Assembly: GCA_029378245.1 (NCBI GenBank)
Contig: JARKIF010000007.1
Coordinates: 2,418,001 to 2,482,000 of the forward strand
DNA length: 64,000 nt
Source of the DNA: Roridomyces roridus
Taxonomy: Eukaryota > Basidiomycota > Agaricomycetes > Agaricales > Mycenaceae
Direction of reading: 5' to 3'
The notes under the pieces are model-generated. The model was not told where the DNA came from. It saw nothing but the letters and a program-made list of their open reading frames with translations, and did not search any database. Of the stretch, positions 9,543 to 64,000 are shown piece after piece (the first letter of the stretch is position 1; each line of letters starts with the position of its first letter). Both the position numbers and the translations under genes were made by a program.

Positions 9543-10447
9543 TTCTTCATGGACCTTTTGTTACTCTACGCGTCTGGCTTGATCAGGGACTTTGGATTTG
9601 AATACACGGTTACGAGGCTTCTTCAGCATCAGATGTACCAGTTTCGATGGCTCAGTTCGGATGGAATGTTGTAATGCGAGAGACATTTATGTAAGTACCG
9701 GAAGGCCAGGCAAAATTGATGGTTTGACGGAGTGTGAGGCACGAGTGCTCCACAAAACCGAGTTTGTGGATCAGCAACCGTCACCACGTTACGTTTGCTT
9801 CTTGTCTCGAGCCACCTCGCACGCTGGCATTGTCGCCCTCGGCGGCGCCGTTCTTTTTGTGCCTCTGACGTGCGAGTGGCTCGAGTGTTCCATCTACTCC
9901 TCTCATCCTCTTCCCACTCTCCGCAACTCCTCAAGCCATTGCCTAGGGCTTCGGGTGCTGCAGTGGCGCGCGGCAATGGCGGTCGGCTACTATGGATTTG
10001 GGTGCGTCTCTGCGCGCCGACCGCCTTCATGGCCACTGACCTCGCTGTCACCTCCCTTACCTTCCACACTGGAGTCGTCTGTCCTCGCCGCATGGCTCTT
10101 ATCTCCGCATTGCGGGCACCATCGCCGTTGCTGGCGCCGCTGTTCTGTTCCGTAGATATCACCGCTGCCCGTCAATGAATCATCTGCATTTCGACACTTG
10201 CGTCCCTGCGTTACCTTCCCCTGTCTTTGCATCCCCGTCTCTTTCTATCCAGCCCCCTGTGTCTCTGCGCTCCGTCTTTGGGACTGTCCGGCATCCGCTT
10301 CCCTGCATGAACTCTGTCTCGCTGCTGCTGAACCATGCCGTTGCATACCGCTGTTTTCTGAACGCGCTTGTCGCGCCGCTGTTGCTGAACACGCATTGCC
10401 GTGCCGCTGTTGCTGAGCGCGCTTTATTGTGTTGCTGTTGCTGTTGC
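9543..10447. other. Gene-poor spacer
   Basis: No recognised gene. Both strands carry open frames of 120-190 codons around 9600-10180, but they overlap one another and show no domain or splice logic. The right end grades into the 100-bp minisatellite. Confidence 0.45.
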
Positions 10448-10947
10448 TCCTCTGATACTGGGGTGCCCCCAGAGTCGAGTTTGCTGTTTTCTGTTCGAGC
10501 GTTGCGCTGCTGTTGCTGTTTGCGCCTTCGCGCCGCTGTTCTGCTTCTCCTCTGACACTGGGGTGCCCCCAGAGTTGAGTTTGCTGTTTTCTGTTTGCGC
10601 TGTGCGCCGCTGTTGCTGTTTGCGCCTTCGCGCCGCTGTTCTGTTCCTCCTCTGACACTGGTGTGCCCCCAGAGTTGAGTTTGCTGTTTTCTGTTTGCGC
10701 TGTGCGCCGCTGTTGCTGTTTGCGCCTTTGCGCCGCTGTTTTGTTCCTCCTCTGATACTGGTGTGCCCCCAGAGTTGAGTTCGCTGTTCTCTGTTTGCGC
10801 TCTGCACCGCTGTTGCTGTTCGCACCTTCGTGCCGCTGTTCTGTTCCTCCTCTGATGCCCCCCAGAGGCGAGTTCGCTATTCGCTATTCGCGCCAATGTT
10901 TCTGTCACTCCTCTGATGCTGGGGTACCTCCAGAGGAGTCTCTGTCC
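10448..10947. repeat. 100-bp minisatellite, about 5 copies
   Basis: The marker TCCTCTGA recurs at 10448, 10548, 10648, 10748 and 10848, an exact 100-base period. Four copies are near-identical (…CCCCCAGAGT…GCCGCTGTTGCTGTTTGCGC…) and a degenerate fifth continues to about 10947. The unit lacks stop codons on the minus strand, so long frames exist there in all three phases, but 100 is not a multiple of three, which argues against translation as a repeat protein. Confidence 0.9.
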
Positions 10948-44342: not shown

Positions 44343-47300
44343 ATGGACCCCAGCACTGTGGTCAAAGCAGGCTCTGGCACCCAAGGAAATCTAACGACAT
44401 CCCTTGACTCAGGATCAGATTGGATTGGAGGATTGCTCCGGCTAGCCAAGGGAATGGAGGCTGCAGGAGAGTTTGCACCATTCCCATACATCAAAGGGGC
44501 TTGTGGAGTGGTTGTGAGTGTGATTGAAGTTGTCCAAGTGCGTGTCTCCTTGCATGGCTGCAAATGTACTTGGCTTACCAAAGTTGAACCACAGGAAGTC
44601 AAACGTAATCGAGAGGATCTTCAAGAGCTATGTGAAGGTATCGGAAGAATTTTGAATATCCTTCAGAATGAGATGGGAAACCATAGCGGAGGGGTGGATA
44701 AATTCAAGGATCTTTGTGAAGGCTTTGAAAGGTAAGCATCCAGAAAGTATGTCACATTGACAATCCTCACTCAGAGAATGCAGATGTCTCAGGGAGATCC
44801 TGAAATCCGTAAAGATACTTGCAAAAAAACCTCAAGGTTTTCGTGGTCATGCCAAAGAGATATTCCACTTGGACAGCACCAAAGCGCAAATTGCTGGTCA
44901 TCAGAGGAAAATAGAGGAATTCCGCAAAGACTTTCTAGTATGTGGACAGATTCCATACCATTGGGACTCCATTGAAAGCATCGGCAGCTCCGTATCAGCA
45001 TGCGCATTGGATTTCATCTCTTGGGAACCAACAGTATGAGGTTTCTTGGCATGAGGAGAACTGACAAGAATGGTGATTTGCAGACCCAAATAAAGCACAG
45101 ATTCCTTTGAAAACCAATGAATGTCCTGCACCTTCAAGAGTTTTCCAGGGGCGCCAGAGAATTTTGCAGGAAGTGAAGGCCTTTTTTGACAATGGCACTG
45201 TGAAACAGCATATATGTCTGCTCCATGGACTAGGGGGTTCCGGCAAAACCCAGATTGCCCTCAAATTCATTGATGACTCGGCATCCAAGTATGTCGTCTT
45301 GTGTTGGGTGCCTGTTATTGCAACTGACTCAAATTTGAAGATTTACAGATCTCTTTTTTCTTGACATGAGTAGCCAGACAACAATTGAAGCTGGCTTGAA
45401 GAATATTGCCATCATCAAGCAGATAGGGAGCACCCAAGAGGATGCAATGAAATGGCTTACGGATGTGCAGAGCAACTGGTTCCTGCTCTTTGACAATGCA
45501 GATGATCCAAACATAAACTTGGATCCCTATCTTCCCAGGTGTAATCAAGGGAATATATTGATCACATCCCGGAACCCTGGCCTCTGTGTTCATGCTGGTG
45601 CTCATTGGATTGTGTCTGATATGGAAGAGACAGATGCTGCGGTGCTGCTGCTCAAAGGTGCTGCCAAAGATGTGACAGACGAAAACATGGAAACTGCCAA
45701 AGAGATCAGCCAGGTAAATTCAAACTGACCATTTGGAACATTATTCATCCTCTTTGCAGGCTCTGTATTGTCTGCCACTGGCTATTGCCCAAGCCAGTGC
45801 TTTTATTGCAAAATCAGGAAAATTCAAGGGTTACTTGAAAGTGTACAGACAAAATCGGGACAAATTACTGGGTGAAAAACCTACTCAGCAACAAGATGGC
45901 TATGCACAGTCTGTGTATACTACCTGGGAGATGAGCTTTCACAGGCTCAGCCACACTGCACAAACACTGCTACAGTTGTGCTCATGCTTGCACTATCAAG
46001 GAATCTCTGAGATGATATTCCAGAATGCAGCCAAATATAACACAGATCATGAACCAGATGGACCATCACAGAAACAACTATGTGATGCCTATAAATTCAT
46101 TGCAAACTTCCAGAATCAGGCTGGTCAATGGGATTCCCTGGCATTCATTGAAGTTGCAACTGAATTGCAGGCATATGCTCTCATTAGTTTTGATGAAGAA
46201 ACAGCAGTCTTCTCCATCCATCCACTGGTGCATGGTTGGTGTCAAAGGTTGGCAGTCAACCAGGTGGAAGTGATGATAAATCTCATGGGAATGTCAATCT
46301 CTGCCGGAGATTATTCAGATGCACAAAGTGTAGGGATGTTGCCTCATTTGTGGACCCTGATAGAGGATGAGGTGGGAAGGTCACCAGAGTGGAATGAGCA
46401 ATTTGCCAAGATATACTTCCAGAGCTTCAAGTTCCAATTGGCTACAGAATTTTGGGGTCACGTATGGAGGGAAAAACAAGATAGACATGGAGAGAATCAT
46501 CCGCAGACTTTGAATTCCATGGAACGTCTTGGTATATCATATCGAGGACTTGGGCAGTTCAGTGATGCACTACAACTACAAATGGTGGTCCTGGAGAAGC
46601 GAAAGGAGCTTCTGGGTGAGGAGCATCCAGACACCCTATCGGCAATGGTTTACCTGGCCATCACACACAACGGGCTTGGACATTTCAATCATGCACTGCT
46701 ACTGCAGACCTTAGTCCTTGAGACGCAAAAGGAGCTGCTGGGCGAGGAGCATCTAGACACCCTGATGGCAATGGGAAACCTGGCTTGCACACACAGTAAC
46801 CTTGGACAGTTCAATGATGCACTGCCACTGGAGACTTTGGTCCTTGAGAAGCGAAGAAAGGTTCTGGGCGAGGAGCATCCAGACACCCTGATGGCAATGG
46901 GAAACCTGGCTTGCACACACAGTCACCTTGGACAGTTCAATCATGCACTGCCACTGGAGACCTTGGTCCTTGAGAAGCAAAAGAAGCTTCTGGGCGAGGA
47001 GCATCCAGACACCCTATGGGCAATGGGAAACCTGGCCATCACACACAAGGAGCTTGGAGAGTTCAATGATGCACTGCCGCTTCACACCTTGGTCCTTGAG
47101 AAGCGAAAGAAGCTTCTGGGCGAGGAGCATCCAGACACCCTATGGGCAATGGGAAACCTGGCCATCACACACAAGGAGCTTGGACAGTTCAATGATGCAC
47201 TGCTACTGGAGACATTTGTCCTTGGGAAGCGAAAGAAGCTTCTGGGTGAGGAGCATCCAGACACCCTATCTGCAATGGGAAACCTGGCCATCACACACAA

Positions 47301-48636
47301 GGAGCTTGGAGAGTTCAATGATGCACTGCCACTTCACACCTTGGTCCTTGAGAAGCGAAAGAAGCTTCTGGGCGAGGAGCATCCAGACACCCTATCGGCA
47401 ATGGGAAACCTGGCCAACATATACATGGCACTTGGAGAGTTCAATGATGCACTGCCACTTCACACCTTGGTCCTTGAGAAGCGAAAGAAGCTTCTGGGCG
47501 AGGAGCATCCAGACACCCTATGGGCAATGGGAAACCTGGCCATCACACACAAGGAGCTTGGAGAGTTCAATGATGCACTGCCACTTCACACCTTGGTCCT
47601 TGAGAAGCGAAAGAAGCTTCTGGGCGAGGAGCATCCAGACACCCTATGGGCAATGGGAAACCTGGCCATCACACACAGGAAGCTTGGAGAGTTCAATGAT
47701 GCACTGCTACTGGAGACATTTGTCCTTGAAAAGCAAAAGAAGCTTCTGGGTGAGGAGCATCCAGACACCCTCAGGGCAATGGGAAACCTGGCCATCACAC
47801 ACAAGGAGCTTGGAGAGTTCAAGGATGCACTGCTACTGGAGGTCTTGGTCCTTGAGAAGCGAAAGAAGCTTCTGGGTGAGGAGCATCCAGAAACCCTACG
47901 GGCAATGGGAAACCTGGCTGGCACACACAGTAACCTTGGACAGTTCAATGATGGACTGGCACTGGAGGTCTTGGTCCTTGAGAAGCGAAGAAAGGTTCTG
48001 GGTGAGGAGCATCCAGAAACCCTACGGGCAATGGGAAACCTGGCTGTCACACACAGCAAGCTTGGAAAATTCAATGATGCCCTGCCGCTTCAAACTTTGG
48101 TCCTTGAAAAACGAAAGAAGCTTCTGGGCGAGGAGCATCCAGACACCCTAGGGGCAATGGGAAACCTGGCTGTCACACACACAGAGCTTGGAGAGTTCAA
48201 TGATGCACTGCTACTGGAGGTCTTGGTCCTTGAAAAACGAAAGAAGCTTCTGGGTGAGGAGCATCCAGAAACCCTACGGGCAATGGGAAACCTGGCTGGC
48301 ACACACAGTAACCTTGGACAGTTCAATGATGGACTGGCACTGGAGGTCTTGGTCCTTGAGAAGCGAAGAAAGGTTCTGGGTGAGGAGCATCCAGACACCC
48401 TATCGGCAATGGGAAACCTGGCCATCACACACAAGGAGCGTGGAGAGTTCAATGATGCACTGCTACTAGAGGTCTTGGTCCTTGAGAAGCGAAAGAAGCT
48501 TCTGGGTGAGGAGCATCCAGACACCCTACAAGCAATGAAGAATCTGATCAACACATACAAGGGACTGGGGAAGGTTGAAGAAGTCGATGCGCTCAATATT
48601 CAGCTTGAACATGCCCGGAGAACCAAGGATCAGTGA
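44343..48636 (+). CDS. NLR-type protein: helical domain, NB-ARC, 17 TPR repeats
   Basis: Fungal NLR, a predicted self/non-self or stress receptor. The ATG at 44343 gives MDPSTVVKAGSGTQGN. The N-terminal helical domain (FAPFPYIKGACGVVVSVIE, then after an intron EVKRNREDLQELCEG and EIFHLDSTKAQIAGHQRKIE) resembles the HeLo/MLKL-type four-helix domains that trigger cell death in related proteins. The NB-ARC module has a P-loop GLGGSGKTQIALKF (45227), Walker B WFLLFDNADD, sensor GNILITSRNP, GLPL-like YCLPLAIAQASAF and an HPLVHGW motif in place of MHD. Five introns were inferred, including one at 45292-45344 and one at 45715-45759. The last exon (45760-48636) carries 17 tandem 42-residue TPR units of kinesin-light-chain type, core HPDTLWAMGNLAITHKELG. 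All nucleotide-binding motifs are intact. Base composition is AT-richer than in the flanking genes. Confidence 0.9.
46490..48620 (+). repeat. 126-bp tandem repeat array (TPR units)
   Basis: Seventeen units of 126 bases. The marker GGCGAGGAGCATCCAGACAC recurs every 126 bases with few changes; the central units are almost identical and the first two and the last are most diverged. Because 126 is divisible by three, the other frames also stay open for hundreds of codons, which are shadows and not genes. Confidence 0.95.
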
Positions 48637-52969: not shown

Positions 52970-55010
52970 GGCTTAACAGGCACATCCGGCCTTAACAGTC
53001 CCATCAGGGCTGAAACCGCCTTTTATGCCACTTCAAAGCCACGATTGAGATTCAGCAGCCCTTAACAGCCCACCCAGGGCTGGACACCTGTTAAGCCCTG
53101 GAGCCGCTATTATGGCCTGAGTGCGGCTATTACCTCCTTCCCGCTCCTCTTACAAATCCCAGAAATGAATCGAAAGCGATTGAATTCACAACAACTACAA
53201 CAAGACAAAGTATCGGTACAGTCGACGGTGACGGGCAGCGGGTGTCGGAACAATCAGACCTGCAACAGAGTCAGAAGGAGCTCGACCAGCGGCTGAGAAA
53301 ACGAACCGAATAGAGCCGCCGATGTGAGATGCGGTGAGATACGATGAGCTGCGCGGGAGAAAGTCAGTTGAGGGAACCGGCCGCAAACGTACTGACTCAC
53401 AGTCCGACGCGACGTATAGCAATGGACGGACTTGGTACTATTGGTCGTATTAGCAAGGATTAATACCGACAAGATGAACAAATCACCAAAACAAGACAAG
53501 TCCACAGTTGTCGATGAGAGACGTGATTGGCTAGAAAAGGGTAAGCAAGCATTCCGCAGTCAAAAAAGAGCCACAGACCAGTACAGTATCAATCGCCGGC
53601 GACAAGATCCTGCGAACGAGTGTTAGGAATATGTTGAATGTTCATTGTGAACGTACATACAATTGGATTTCTTGAATGAGAGCACATCTATGCGGACTTG
53701 GTCAGCGACAACGACGGCAAGGAATTACATAAAGGACTCACAAGTCCGTAAAAAACTGCAGCCGGGAAGCTCGTGTGAGTGGGTCGAATAAAACACATCG
53801 AACCTTTCAAAACATTCGTCCGGTACTAGATGAGAAGATTAGTACGGAGTAAAGCCAAGGAACGGGTACATACATTCAAATGCATACGACCTGTGCTTCA
53901 GTTAGTAGAAAGCCCGACATATGGGGTAGAAATACCCACAGGTTCTCCCGAGTCGTTATTGGGCCATCGCTGCATCCAAGTGAGTCGGAGGGAACGGTAT
54001 TCCAGAAGTTACACCAATACTTTTAGCGCCTGCCGCGGCGTTAAAGGGATTGCGCTCCACCATGTGAATTGCATTTGCAGGTCGGTGTCGTCGTCGGGCC
54101 CTGTCGACGAGGCATCAGCAGCGAACGACAGAGGGAGGCGTGAGGTACCTCATCCAGGCATTGACCCCTGCGTAGTACGCGATCCGACCGGGAGGGAGAA
54201 GTGGCGTGTCTTGACAACGCGTCGGGGTGGCACGAGCACGCTTGGGATAGGCAAAACAAGCCACGGTGCATGAAGCGGGAGAGGGGATACGAGTGACAAT
54301 ACGCACTTTGGAGAGACACTCCACTCCCCGAGATGGTATGCACGCGATGCACCTCCTGTATTAGGTGTGAGGAGCGATGTGCCTGAAATGCGTCCTAGAG
54401 TCGTTCTGAGGCATGAAGAAGGTGAGGATGAGCGCATATACGAGGGTTAGAGCACGTACTTGCTGCCTCCGGACTCCGGACTCCGGACTGTCACTGATGC
54501 TGCTGGCGCGACCAGAATGGCGTACTTGAGCTCGTTCTCGCGTCCAGCCGTTCGTCTTGTCGTGTAAGCTGGGGCGTGGTACATCCTCGAAAGCGTCCAT
54601 CTCCGTTCGCCGTCTCTCGGCGTTGAGCCCAGCAGGCGATAATGTCGTCATGGCGGCGCCTTCGAGCAGTCAGGGAGGATGAGAAAGGCGAAGGAAGAGG
54701 ATTGCGCATGAACTAGCGGAGTGTGAGCGAAGTGGAGCCAAACGTCTCGGTCTTGATGCTGCCAGGTCGAGTGGTGGTAGGGAGCAAGCTTAAGTCGTGT
54801 ACTTGACGCGCGTTGGATTTTAAGTCCCTGTGGCAGCCAGGCTGAGAGATGCCTGAGAAGAGCCTTAAAAGCTCTGTGTTAGCCTTGATGAGGCTGGATC
54901 AGGGAGGAGCCAGGCTGAAAGCGCCTGTTAAGCGCCTTGCATGACGCGTCTATGCCTGGATCGGCTTGGCAAGGTCACGCGGGCCTTAACAGCTTCCGAC
55001 CCTTTTGGTG
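52970..55010. repeat. Region bracketed by inverted CTTAACAG-rich ends
   Basis: GGC(C)TTAACAGxCxC-type motifs cluster at 52970-53115 and again, mostly in reverse orientation, at 54870-55000. TCATCACCAA near 52930 has a reverse-complement match (TTGGTGATGA) near 55003-55012. This resembles the subterminal repeats of a DNA transposon about 2 kb long, but no clean terminal repeat or target duplication was found. The interior has no recognised gene. Confidence 0.3.
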
Positions 55011-55104
55011 ATGACTTCTTTTGTGCTTCCAAGAGTCGAGGACTGGAGCAAATCTGTACAAAGCTGATACGCATCTTGTCTTTTTCCCTTCACCTCTCCT
55101 TTGC

Positions 55105-56082
55105 ATGAAGCCCAAGACCCACCAGGAATTTTTCTGCTATGAATACTCTTGTCCGAAGACCAGGCTAACAGGCACCGCCATGAGCGTCTGCGGTAAATGT
55201 AGATCCGTATCTTACTGCGTGCGTCTTCTAAATTTTCACCGAGGCTTTTTGGTCACCGGTCGTCTCCCAGAGCGTCTCCTGTCAACGCGCAGACTGGCCG
55301 CGCCACAAACCACGGTGCAAACAACTCGTCGCCAAGGCCGTTTTGGAAGGTCCGCTGTCGGAAGAATTCGCGCGATGGCGGAAGGACATGGGTCCCCGCC
55401 TCTACCATGACATCTGCTATCACGGTGAGTTTTGTTTTCGCTGCCATTTCCGTACAGCAAGTTGATTGACTCGGTAGCCATGCGCGGCCATGCGAATGTG
55501 GAGTACATCGAGAGCAAGCTCATCCTCCTCACGTTGCGTCTGCGAGAGCCTCGAGGGACGGGCAACGACCTCCAGATATTACACTTTCAGAGCATCGAGG
55601 TTCTTGACGTGGCGGACCTTGGCACTCTCACTGACGAACCGAGGGATGACTTGTTGCAAGATATGCGCGACTGGAGCAGGAAGATGAAGCTGTGTGCCCC
55701 CGTCCCCTGTGGAGCCGCTTGGCTTGTCACGGATATTCGGTCTCCAGATGGCTCGCAGAGGCTCCTCCTATGTCATCAAAAGATCGCGCTGAAAATAGAG
55801 GCACTTGCCCAGTATAAACTCCCACCCACGGTCGCGGAAGATCTGGTAGCGATGGTCATCAATCAGGGTATGGGCGTCGAGGGCCCAGATGTGACGCAGC
55901 TGCCGGTGAAGCAAATTACCCAGTATCTCATGCACCATCCAGAAAAACTTGACTCGATGATGGAGCAGACCATCCACCTTTTTGCTCAAGCTGGTGATGG
56001 GCAGTGTGCGTGTTTCGTAGATCAGCCCAACTGTCCATGTTCACGCTCTGTAGTCAACCCAGCATCACAAGAGTCGGCGTAG
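55105..56082 (+). CDS. MYND zinc-finger protein
   Basis: The start at 55105 gives MKPKTHQEFFCYEYSC. Splicing at about 55219-55270 completes a MYND finger: C-YEYS-C, VCGKCRSVSYC, SVSCQRADWPRHKPRCKQ, with the Cys/His spacing of the family. A second intron (about 55424-55475) precedes the remaining 200 residues, which begin MRGHANVEYIESKLILLTL and include DDLLQDMRDWSRKMKLC and QYLMHHPEKLDSMMEQTIH. MYND fingers bind proline-rich partners, often transcriptional co-regulators. The C-terminal region matches no family I know. The first zinc pair is C-x4-C rather than C-x2-C. About 290 residues. Confidence 0.75.
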
Positions 56083-57040
56083 GACGACGCGGCTCAGCTG
56101 TCTACTTTCTTGGATTCCCCAGTATCGCAGCACTTTCCGCTGAAGGTCCTTGATTCCCTGTGCGTACGACACTTGCTCACTACCGGTACTCAAATTCACG
56201 TTTCACTCAGATGTACTATACTTGTCGGCGGCTACGAGCTTTCAAATAACATTATCGTGCTCTCCGCTGCAGAAATACTAGAACGACAATAGGTTTGAGT
56301 GTCTGTATAAGCCGCCACTAATGACATAGAACTCCTCATCGCGGGTTTCCGCGTGGTTTCCTATTTCTGCGGTCTGGTCCGGTCAATAGAGCACGCCATT
56401 GATTGCAGCTCGACAGATGGTCGCCCGGTCGCGGGAGACAAACTTTGACCCCACACCTCAGGTCCGATCGGACGCCACCGCAGACGTGCACCATGGGCCC
56501 AGGGCAATGTCGATGACTACAGGAGGCGAACCCCCAGCAGCCGAACTAAAATCGCTGACAAGGAAGACCTGTCGATATTGCGTCGATAGGTACCCGTAGG
56601 ATCGCTCATCCTTCCCATCGGATGTACTCAACTGACCTATCTTTTGAATTTCCCAGACTCGCGTTATTTTTGCCAACGCCGCTCCGCGCTGGGATTACCT
56701 TAGCTAGCTCCGCTTCGACCTCTCTCTGCGTGCTCGGTTGAGCAAACACTGATGGTCTTCTATCGCTCCTTGAATGCCTCGTTTCTCCCGTCCACCTAGG
56801 TGGCGCCTGATACATCATTCCCCGCAATTCAATGCCAATTAAAGCGCCACAATGTGCCGAGAAGCCGAACTGCACCAGGACGTTTGTTCCTCATCAGTCG
56901 CTCTTCTAGAACTCTCACTCTCATCTCGATCCAAGTTCTTTTCGCAGGGTCAGCCGCAAACGGGTATAACAACCAGTGGCGCGGATGTCTTTCTCACGGC
57001 AGTCATCCCTCCCTCCCTCCCTCCCTCCCCCGCGTCCAGC
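56083..57040. other. Spacer with (TCCC)n run
   Basis: No gene recognised. A CCCT/TCCC microsatellite lies at about 57007-57030, just upstream of the DUF6534 start codon. Confidence 0.5.
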
Positions 57041-59410: not shown

Positions 59411-59732
59411 GCCAAACTATTCGTCATGAGTCGGAACGAGATTGAAGCGCAGGAGACTTATGTGCGTACCTGCAGGAGCAAGATATTGGCCAGGTTGACG
59501 AGAAAAATGACTCTACCGCGCCGTGTATAAGTCAATTATCTTGCAATTATCGCGACTGCGACGCCGCTTGGTGATACGCGGGGAGAGGCGGACAGGCATT
59601 TAGACAGGCACGCGTGATCGCCCTACCGGTTGAGTTAAGCTGAGAGTTGCAACTTGCGGCACGGAGTTGAGAAATGCCCTTGTCCAGTCCGTAGAACAAA
59701 TGTTCTCGTAGATCTCAAGGAGATGATGACAG

Positions 59733-60357
59733 TAGTGATGTCAAAGTTCGGTTCGGTTCGAGTTCGGGGCCTCTTTGGCTGAACTCTGAACCTGAACTTC
59801 AGGTTCGGTTCGGCAAAACCATGAACTCCGAACCTGAACTCCAGTTCAGGTTCGGTTCAGGTTCGAACTCAGTTCGAACCTCCCGCGCTTCACCAAGGTT
59901 CAATTCAAATTTTGGCCACTGTAAACTGTTCAAGAAAGCATGTAGTAAGTGTGTTCAACCCCATAACATGTCTCCACACCTTTTGAGAGAGCTAAAAGCC
60001 CTAAATGGGTTGCATCAGCATGATCACAAGCGCGTGATGGCCCATCAACTCTCAATAAACATGTTTGCACTGGGGCCTGACGGTTACGAAGAAAATCCTG
60101 TCTCATTTTGCCCACTGAGAAAGTGAGTACAGTCAAGATCTGTTCAAAAGGCGGGCCAAATCATGAGAAAATCATCAAAAACAGCCAGTTTCAGGTTCAA
60201 GTTCAGTTCGGGTTCGAACTTTCCGGTGACGGCTGAACCTCGAACCTGAACTTCAGGTTCGGTTCAAACATACACTGAGCTTTGAACCTGAACTTTTGTT
60301 CAGTTCGGTTCGGTTCGAGTTCGAACCGTTTACTCGAACCGGACTTTGACAGCACTA
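59733..60357. mobile_element. hAT MITE, 625 bp, 8-bp target duplication
   Basis: Ends read TAGTGATGTCAAAGT and, inverted, TAGTGCTGTCAAAGT. GATGACAG flanks both sides (59725-59732 and 60358-60365), a perfect 8-bp duplication. Many GGTTCG/CGAACC motifs crowd both subterminal regions (59750-59890 and 60190-60340), giving long imperfect inverted repeats around a central 300 bases that encode nothing recognisable. Terminus, target length and subterminal repeats all fit hAT. Confidence 0.92.
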
Positions 60358-60541: not shown

Positions 60542-61574
60542 ATGGCAGACGTTCAGACCCCCAACTTCAAGCTCGTTCTCGGTTCGTACTCTCCACCACT
60601 CCTTCCTTCCTGCGATACTGACTCCATTCTCCCACTTCCCCTCCTTTCTTCCAACTCGATGCAGTCGGAGACGGCGGAACGGGCAAGACCACATTCGTCA
60701 AGGTGAGCCGCACTCGCGTCCCTGAGAATACCCATCCAACCCACCTCTCCAGCGTCACCTGACGGGCGAATTCGAAAAGAAATACATCGGTACCCGGCCC
60801 TCCGCCTTCTCGCGCCTCGCACGACCTAACCGCCCGCCTCCTCTACCTCTCCGCCCTCAGCGACCCTCGGCGCGGAAGTCCACCCTATCAGCTTCACAAC
60901 TAATTTCGGCGAACTGCGCTTCAACGTCTGGGATACCGCCGGCCAGGAAAAGTTTGGTGGGCTCAGAGATGGGTATTACATCCAGGCGAGCTGCGCTATC
61001 ATCATGTTCGACGTGACTTCGCGGATCACGTACCAGAGTGTGCCGAATTGGCATCGGGACCTGGAGCGTGTTTGTGAAGGGGTGCCGATTGTCCTTTGTG
61101 GGAATAAGGTCGATGTCAAGGTGTGTTTTTCGCTTTCTCTTTCTCTCTCTTCCTTCAGGTCGATCTGGCTGATTGGATGTCTGCGTAGGAGCGAAAGATC
61201 AAGCCTAGCTCTGTCACCTTCCACCGCAAGAAGAACCTCCAGTACTACGAGATGTCCGCCAAGTCCAACTACAACTTCGAGAAACCTTTCTTGTATCTTG
61301 GACGCCGGCTCCTAGGGTAGGGGCATACTCTCCCTCTATTTCTTCCGATCTAACGCTCGGCTCAATTCATAGAAGCCCGACTCTCGAGTTTGTCGCGCAG
61401 TGCAGCCTGTATCCCCCGGAGGCGCATATCGACGCGGAGACTCTGGCGCAGTACAACAAGGAGCTTGAAAAGGTGTGGTGCTCTCCTTCGCTTTACCCGT
61501 CCTCTGAGTCTGACCATCATTCCTCTCAGGCAGCGATGATGCCCATCCCGGATGAGGATGACGATGACTTGTAA
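60542..61574 (+). CDS. GSP1: Ran GTPase (nuclear transport)
   Basis: Small GTPase that drives nucleocytoplasmic transport through importins and exportins. The ATG at 60542 starts [13 protein letters not shown]; splicing gives the P-loop [18 protein letters not shown], then [19 protein letters not shown] (switch I), [20 protein letters not shown] (switch II), [20 protein letters not shown] (G4), [20 protein letters not shown] (G5) and the acidic C-terminus [11 protein letters not shown]. Introns at about 60582-60663, 60702-60752, 60791-60867, 61122-61188, 61317-61370 and 61474-61531 all have usable sites. Full length, about 215 residues. The C-terminal linker ([15 protein letters not shown]) is more diverged from animal Ran than the G domain. 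An essential single-copy-type gene, unlike its accessory neighbours. Confidence 0.95.
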
Positions 61575-63329: not shown

Positions 63330-64000
63330 ATGCGCATCGCTCTGATCCTCACTGCTCTTGCACTGGCCGCCAAGAGCGCACCGCTCGTTAGTCTTCCTTA
63401 CTCTAAACTCTTCACTAAACTCACCGCGGACATTGTCCTCCAGGGCGAGCTGGGTCCTTCCTCCTCCTCCGTGGATCTGGGCGTCGGCGAGCTACGAGAC
63501 TCGGCAATTGGGCATCTGGTTTGTTTTCCTCACCCTCTGGGAATTTCCGGTGGTTTCTGACGACCAATTGCGCAGCAGACTGACGGCGCCCCTCCGTGGA
63601 GACGAGTTGAGAGCTCCTCGATGGGCGAGCTGGAACTGGCGCCGGAGGTAGCCCACCATATGGTCCGTATATCAGATTTGGTTCCGTTATGTTTCCCGCT
63701 CATCTTGTAATCTCCAGCAAACTGCCGGCGCACCTCCGTGGAGGAGAGCTCCCTTGGTTGGCGAACCAGTGCCGGAGGTCGGCCACATGGTTAGTCCTAG
63801 TGCCTTCTTCCAAAAATACTGCGTCACTAATCCTTCGTTGCAGCAAACCGACGGCGCACCTCCGTGGAGGAGAGCTCCCTTGGTTGGCGAACCAGCTCCA
63901 CAAGTCGGCCACATGGTTAGTTCCTTCAAACCACAATGTTTTTCTTCATTTGCTCATCCTTTGCTACAGCAGACCGACGGCGCTCCACCGTGGAGACGGA
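63330..64000 (+). CDS. Secreted Kex2-type repeat-peptide precursor, one repeat per exon (3' truncated by window)
   Basis: The ATG at 63330 gives a signal peptide MRIALILTALALAAKSAPL (exon 1, 63330-63386). Exon 2 (63444-63518) encodes a spacer with SSSSVDLGVGELRDSAIGHL. Exon 3 (63576-63662), exon 4 (63718-63789), exon 5 (63844-63915) and exon 6 (from 63970, cut by the edge) each begin QT(D/A)GAPPWRR. Exon 5 continues APLVGEPAPQVGHM; exon 4 has VPEVGHM at its end. All introns are 54-57 bases, GT-AG and phase 0, so each exon is one self-contained unit. Dibasic RR after PPW is a Kex2-type site, so processing would release peptides of about 22 residues running from APLVGE to GAPPW. The design matches fungal Kex2-processed repeat proteins (repellents, pheromone-like and dikaritin RiPP precursors). 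No Cys is present. Repeat number, stop codon and any modifying enzymes lie beyond the window. Confidence 0.8.

Follow-up and report, generated by a model that had tools for sequence, protein, structure and literature searches.

A candidate Kex2-processed repeat precursor with one phase-0 exon per repeat unit in the mushroom Roridomyces roridus

At the right-hand end of a 64,000-nucleotide stretch of the Roridomyces roridus genome (assembly GCA_029378245.1, contig JARKIF010000007.1, positions 2,418,001 to 2,482,000; hereafter the window), a series of short, similar exons raises the question of what kind of protein is encoded there and what follows from the placement of each repeat in an exon of its own. 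Our analysis of the nucleotide and protein sequence indicates that the gene very probably specifies a secreted, Kex2-processed repeat precursor (KEP), from which five linear peptides ending in PPW or PTW would be released.

The gene spans positions 63330-64065 in window numbering, which places its last 65 bases beyond the window end, and encodes 152 residues on the forward strand. Its six exons of 57, 75, 87, 72, 72 and 96 nt (the sixth including the stop codon) are all multiples of three, and the five introns of 57, 57, 55, 54 and 54 nt have GT..AG ends and leave every junction in phase 0. Exon 1 (63330..63386; MRIALILTALALAAKSAPL) reads as a signal-peptide-like start, with a hydrophobic core, IALILTALALAA, that averages 2.7 on the Kyte-Doolittle scale over residues 3-14 (a hydropathy measure alone) and a signal cut that would fall before APL. 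Intron 1 (63387..63443; GTTAGT..CAG, frame open) separates it from exon 2 (63444..63518), which encodes the leader GELGPSSSSVDLGVGELRDSAIGHL, possibly a diverged unit. Units 1 to 4 occupy exon 3 (63576..63662; QTDGAPPWRRVESSSMGELELAPEVAHHM), exon 4 (63718..63789; QTAGAPPWRRAPLVGEPVPEVGHM), exon 5 (63844..63915; QTDGAPPWRRAPLVGEPAPQVGHM) and exon 6 (63970..64000, continuing past the window to 64065; QTDGAPPWRRTSATVPVEHMESNPPTWKRAV and stop), each preceded by an intron: intron 2 (63519..63575) and intron 3 (63663..63717) contain in-frame stops, the latter also not being a multiple of three, while intron 4 (63790..63843) and intron 5 (63916..63969) are stop-free. The motif QT(D/A)GAPPWRR opens the four unit exons (starts 63576, 63718, 63844 and 63970), with CA(A/G) directly after each AG acceptor, and the residue before the GTNNGT donor is L for exon 2 and M for exons 3-5. 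Translation and splice ends bear out what the sequence-only reading of the window had described, namely a signal-like exon, a leader exon, QT(D/A)GAPPWRR exons and phase-0 introns of 54-57 nt.

Read from the contig (C469:2481001-2491000), the frame closes in exon 6 with ...NPPTWKRAV and a stop, so the array comprises exactly four units. The earlier count of at least four repeat exons holds insofar as four are present, but none lies beyond them: the array ends in exon 6 at 64065, and the anticipated rightward extension was not found, since the array stops with the unit already in view. The sequence-only reading had also named an outcome that would tell against it, a frame that broke within one or two further units and that lacked homologues elsewhere. 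The array does stop and no homologue was detected, but its end is orderly (KR-AV-stop); together, these results weaken the picture of a large, dynamic array and do not undo the gene itself.

The gene is deposited as FB45DRAFT_865840, a hypothetical protein of 171 aa (P0001), in a model that removes introns 2-5 exactly as predicted and keeps intron 1 as 19 coding residues. Were that model correct at its 5′ end, intron 1 would as a rule be translated, or be kept in some transcripts only; the precursor would then have 171 aa and its first peptide would be longer, with everything else unchanged. The deposited protein does include VSLPYSKLFTKLTADIVLQ, and the segment is stop-free and a multiple of three. 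However, it starts with GTTAGT, the same donor hexamer as introns 4 and 5, ends in CCTCCAG, has an intron-like length and is low in G (0.12 versus 0.23-0.36 in exons 1-5), and we regard its translation as rather unlikely. Coding of the repeats themselves is supported by their substitutions. Over the ten codons of QT(D/A)GAPPWRR in the four exons, eight nucleotide columns vary, six of them third positions, and the other three blocks differ from exon 5 by 13 substitutions that change the residue in 1 of 30 codons. Random placement gave a mean of 9.0 changed codons, with none of 20,000 simulations yielding one or fewer; because the simulation treats differences as independent and the exons share history, these figures are only indicative, and in that sense the QTxGAPPWRR blocks appear to be under purifying selection. 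A chance open frame or a decayed gene would agree with a search at E ≤ 10 that returned no homologue except the gene's own record, but six in-frame exons, splice signals at all boundaries and synonymous-biased differences make it exceedingly improbable.

Of the 11 basic residues that follow the putative signal cut, 10 lie in five dibasic sites (four RR and one KR), which recur in register after an invariant W; none of 20,000 shuffles of the mature protein reached five such sites. Two of the traits that define KEPs, internal repeats and dibasic Kex2 sites between them, are thus present. In the proposed pathway, the chain would enter the secretory pathway, kexin would cleave after each RR or KR, and a Kex1-type carboxypeptidase would remove the basic residues, with secretion of the five linear peptides APLGELGPSSSSVDLGVGELRDSAIGHLQTDGAPPW, VESSSMGELELAPEVAHHMQTAGAPPW, APLVGEPVPEVGHMQTDGAPPW, APLVGEPAPQVGHMQTDGAPPW and TSATVPVEHMESNPPTW. 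A leading AP might be trimmed by a Ste13-type activity, although the repeated XA/XP signature of such processing is absent, only a single AP following two of the five dibasic sites. Since ten codons of every unit exon precede the end of its Kex2 site, each peptide starts in one exon and is completed by the following one: an exon boundary falls inside the predicted peptide (M|QTDGAPPW), and each GAPPW-ended peptide is joined from two neighbouring exons, as where exon 4 contributes APLVGEPVPEVGHM and exon 5 QTDGAPPW. The expected release of several near-identical peptides with the core APLVGE...GAPPW is only partly borne out. Two of the five predicted peptides are near-identical and share this core, while the other three, of 36, 27 and 17 residues, have diverged and resemble the pair mainly in the tail.

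Two other fates of the secreted chain deserve consideration. As a small, proline-rich, secreted-like protein that lacks a Pfam domain, it could act whole at the surface or in the wall with its dibasic sites uncut, but the register of these sites after the invariant W, and their hold on nearly all basic residues of the mature chain, argue against this, and we consider it improbable. The same genome also has two exon-level kexin P-domain matches above the Pfam cut-off, both on contig C480 and both containing read-through stops in the listed frame, as introns or decay would give. Alternatively, the released peptides could undergo cyclisation or other modification as RiPPs of the ustiloxin/dikaritin type, whose precursors likewise carry Kex2-separated repeats. 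The R. roridus precursor is KEP-like, and a UstYa/DUF3328 profile search of the genome (E ≤ 0.001) gave at least 28 matches at exon level. None of those matches falls on the gene's 2.8-Mb contig, however, and the unit exons, unlike ustiloxin-type precursors, are without Y; moreover, DUF3328 neighbours are given for just 103 of 1,680 (6.1%) basidiomycete KEPs in a passage of PMC7329392. Such modification is highly improbable, and the tailoring enzymes envisaged to the right of the gene were not found in the right flank of about 17 kb. Several of the UstYa matches are paired on different contigs with equal or nearly equal scores (for example C57/C162, C57/C349, C334/C487 and C108/C491), which suggests unmerged haplotypes or recent duplication. 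Overall, the sequence gives good support to the original proposal of a secreted precursor with Kex2-separated repeats on symmetrical exons in phase 0, and the gene is probably functional.

Exons 4 and 5, which encode 24-residue units, are identical at 65 of 72 nt (90%), in agreement with the earlier estimate. Their differences, at positions 6, 8, 53, 54, 57, 58 and 60, had been described as confined to both ends, which is inexact, as the final 12 nt are identical. Exon 3 is 65-68% identical to exons 4 and 5 over its own length, and exon 6 shows 49-53% identity to them, with the likeness mainly in its first 30 nt. The resemblance of introns 4 and 5 is limited to a common donor, GTTAGT, and to 17 nt of similar sequence just ahead of the closing CAG (score reached by 14 of 2,000 shuffles). 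Compared over its full length, their interior does not stand out from shuffles (131 of 1,000 reach the score), and with the last 20 nt removed 1,706 of 2,000 shuffles do so. Homogenisation of exons only, by conversion limited to them, was considered and seems not to be needed. In an ungapped comparison, 31 of 45 sites of the intron interior differ but only 4 of the 24 third codon positions (Fisher p 4e-5), which would suggest such conversion. Once gaps are allowed, the introns have 12 mismatches in 48 aligned sites and 12 gap positions, and no contrast is left (p 0.55), although the gapped interior similarity is itself not above shuffles. Exon duplication is generally expected to give rise to symmetrical exons, and the array probably expanded by duplicating exons together with their flanking splice signals, a process that, followed by drift and indels, would be sufficient to explain it. 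A single copy of the locus is present in the assembly as searched, with no allelic copy whose repeat count could be compared.

Because the unit exons are multiples of three between phase-0 introns, the precursor stays intact when a unit is gained, lost or skipped. Exons 3-5 can be skipped in eight combinations, none of which disrupts the frame and each of which yields at least one GAPPW-ended peptide; introns 1, 4 and 5 have no stops and lengths divisible by three, so forms retaining them would also translate. The idea that exon-sized units allow skipping stands to the extent that the frame is kept in every combination, which is a sequence property and not evidence of regulated splicing. That peptide number and mixture are actually set by skipping of exons, or by their gain and loss in the germ line with the frame always kept, seems quite improbable. 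If the layout proves common in KEPs, it could help explain changes in repeat number, and peptide dosage would be testable by transcript mapping.

One exon per unit is the distinguishing trait of the R. roridus KEP gene, and probably a small variation on a familiar type of gene in fungi. A limited search of the main texts of PMC9769878, PMC7329392 and PMC6339444 found nothing on the exon structure of repeats, which is no proof of novelty; the sole intron mention in PMC9769878 is a method line on intron-less cDNA. The SP7 effectors of AM fungi were considered as a precedent for exon-coded repeats and set aside, the relevant passage of PMC11333574 mentioning a conserved intron before the first repeat and not one per repeat. 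A scan for KEP-like arrays over 294,000 bases (293,000 distinct; the window plus flanking and other stretches) found one, the R. roridus gene itself, and since it covers 0.3% of the genome it says nothing about the rarity of the layout. The other recurrent [KR]R matches were discounted as TPR arrays, the antisense of KEP and TPR arrays, scattered arginine-/proline-rich sites (judged by words alone) and a minisatellite. The long TPR arrays, in which LVLEKR recurs with a 126-nt (42-residue) period at window 45718-48636 and in the right flank (L003:5795-8839, the copy from which the TPR Pfam assignment comes), mimic Kex2 repeats in a naive scan. The minisatellite at window 10434-10856 consists of 4.2 copies with a 100-nt period, 92% matches and no indels; its spacing is similar to that of an exon array, but it is a plain DNA tandem repeat.

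Relatives of the gene were sought in protein collections and in the R. roridus genome. No convincing homologue emerged from 5.8 billion proteins in word-based searches that need shared 5-residue words and could miss distant relatives; the one match at E ≤ 10 among 2,546 candidates was the gene's own record. Neither an E ≤ 10 search nor a pattern search of the R. roridus genome revealed a paralogue. Of the eight matches given by the former, six are the exons of the gene; the remaining two, at E 0.25 and 0.28, each contain a stop and were not credited. The pattern Q...AP.W[KR]R at an exon start matched the four unit exons and one other site, rejected because the codons after its W give no dibasic pair; a reversed control pattern matched twice. 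With no detectable paralogue or homologue, there is no cross-species conservation to cite. A lengthened-array query (best 7,995 candidates scored) returned the same protein and, at E 1.8, a PF20338 protein that repeats RAPLVGES near its start but is otherwise unlike the R. roridus protein. Two published C. cinerea peptides used as a query gave three proteins at E ≤ 10: one, from Hohenbuehelia, has GAPDWRR units, another is metagenomic and KEP-like (APSWRR, PPSWKR), and the third is seemingly unrelated. Pairwise BLASTP of the R. roridus protein against the Hohenbuehelia protein (P0003) gave E 4e-5, but with W[KR]R triplets kept whole 31 of 1,000 shuffles reached the P0003 score and 108 of 1,000 that of P0004; the P0003 resemblance is suggestive but appears to be mostly shared W[KR]R. 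An orphan KEP is ordinary, since 2,560 of 7,878 KEPs are given as lacking homologues in part of PMC7329392.

The Hohenbuehelia grisea protein, HGRIS_007503, shares with the R. roridus protein a tandem arrangement of units (GAPDWRR/GAPDWKR) and has, by eye, a signal-like hydrophobic stretch inside the deposited sequence; in contrast, its units are only about 7-12 residues long including the dibasic pair. Basidiomycete mating pheromones are defined by a C-terminal CaaX, which is absent from the ...PPTWKRAV end of our protein. The Laccaria bicolor protein MiSSP8 carries a DWRR motif. Like the R. roridus gene product, it is a Kex2-cut repetitive precursor in an agaric, and a passage in PMC7329392 reports that its knockdown strongly impairs mycorrhiza formation. 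The conserved mushroom KEP type G-1, whose profile is described there as Y-rich, does not fit. The W-ended Agaricomycete KEPs in the relevant sections of PMC9769878 (C. cinerea 490115 and 447393, Pleurotus 1091723 and 1439342, Lentinula 2599) are likewise secreted precursors processed by Kex2 to linear W-ended peptides, a likeness drawn from published peptides and not a demonstrated sequence relationship. Mass spectrometry found GPPAPSW (C. cinerea), SGVAADW (Pleurotus) and SGTGEASAADW (Lentinula), and QYKAPSW and QMRPPSW were detected on expression of a C. cinerea KEP in yeast. The C. cinerea peptides end in APSW or PPSW, whereas those predicted for R. roridus end in PPW or PTW and, at 17-36 residues, are longer than the published W-ended peptides. 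According to the same sections, six C. cinerea KEP knockouts had no phenotype and were dispensable for axenic growth, no antibacterial activity was seen in the tests made, and a role in biotic interactions was suggested (PMC9769878). By analogy, the likeliest role for the R. roridus peptides is signalling or interaction with neighbours, a tentative assignment. The gene adds a peptide set from a Mycena relative, with exact searchable masses, to a poorly understood class of mushroom peptides; in unmodified form the five peptides have calculated MH+ values of 2284.107, 2255.091, 2861.323, 1882.864 and 3585.782.

To the left of the gene, at about 60542-61574, lies what we take, by sequence recognition, to be a Ran-like GTPase gene, which has just one other genome match, at 71%. 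The right flank holds an aspartic protease gene (about 65089-66663, limits by eye; PF00026 on the scanned fragment), beyond which come a gene that matches no Pfam family and genes of the RING and TPR types. A Pfam scan of eight sequences (P0001, P0003 and six neighbour fragments) assigned no family to P0001, to P0003 or to two neighbour fragments that belong to one family. Members of this family, 76% alike and in opposite orientation, flank the KEP locus at window 55046-56268 and L002:6191-7404 (L002 being C469:2481001-2491000), with two further matches on the same contig; RING and TPR genes likewise lie on both sides in opposite orientation. A segment of about 2 kb at window 53000-55014 recurs with 99% identity on C334 and C335 and less closely, in partial copies of 70-90%, at other sites, a pattern that fits recent insertion of a mobile element. 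An element of about 625 nt (window 59732-60357) ends just upstream of the Ran-like gene; at least 21 other copies, each some 525 nt or longer, are 77-96% identical to it.
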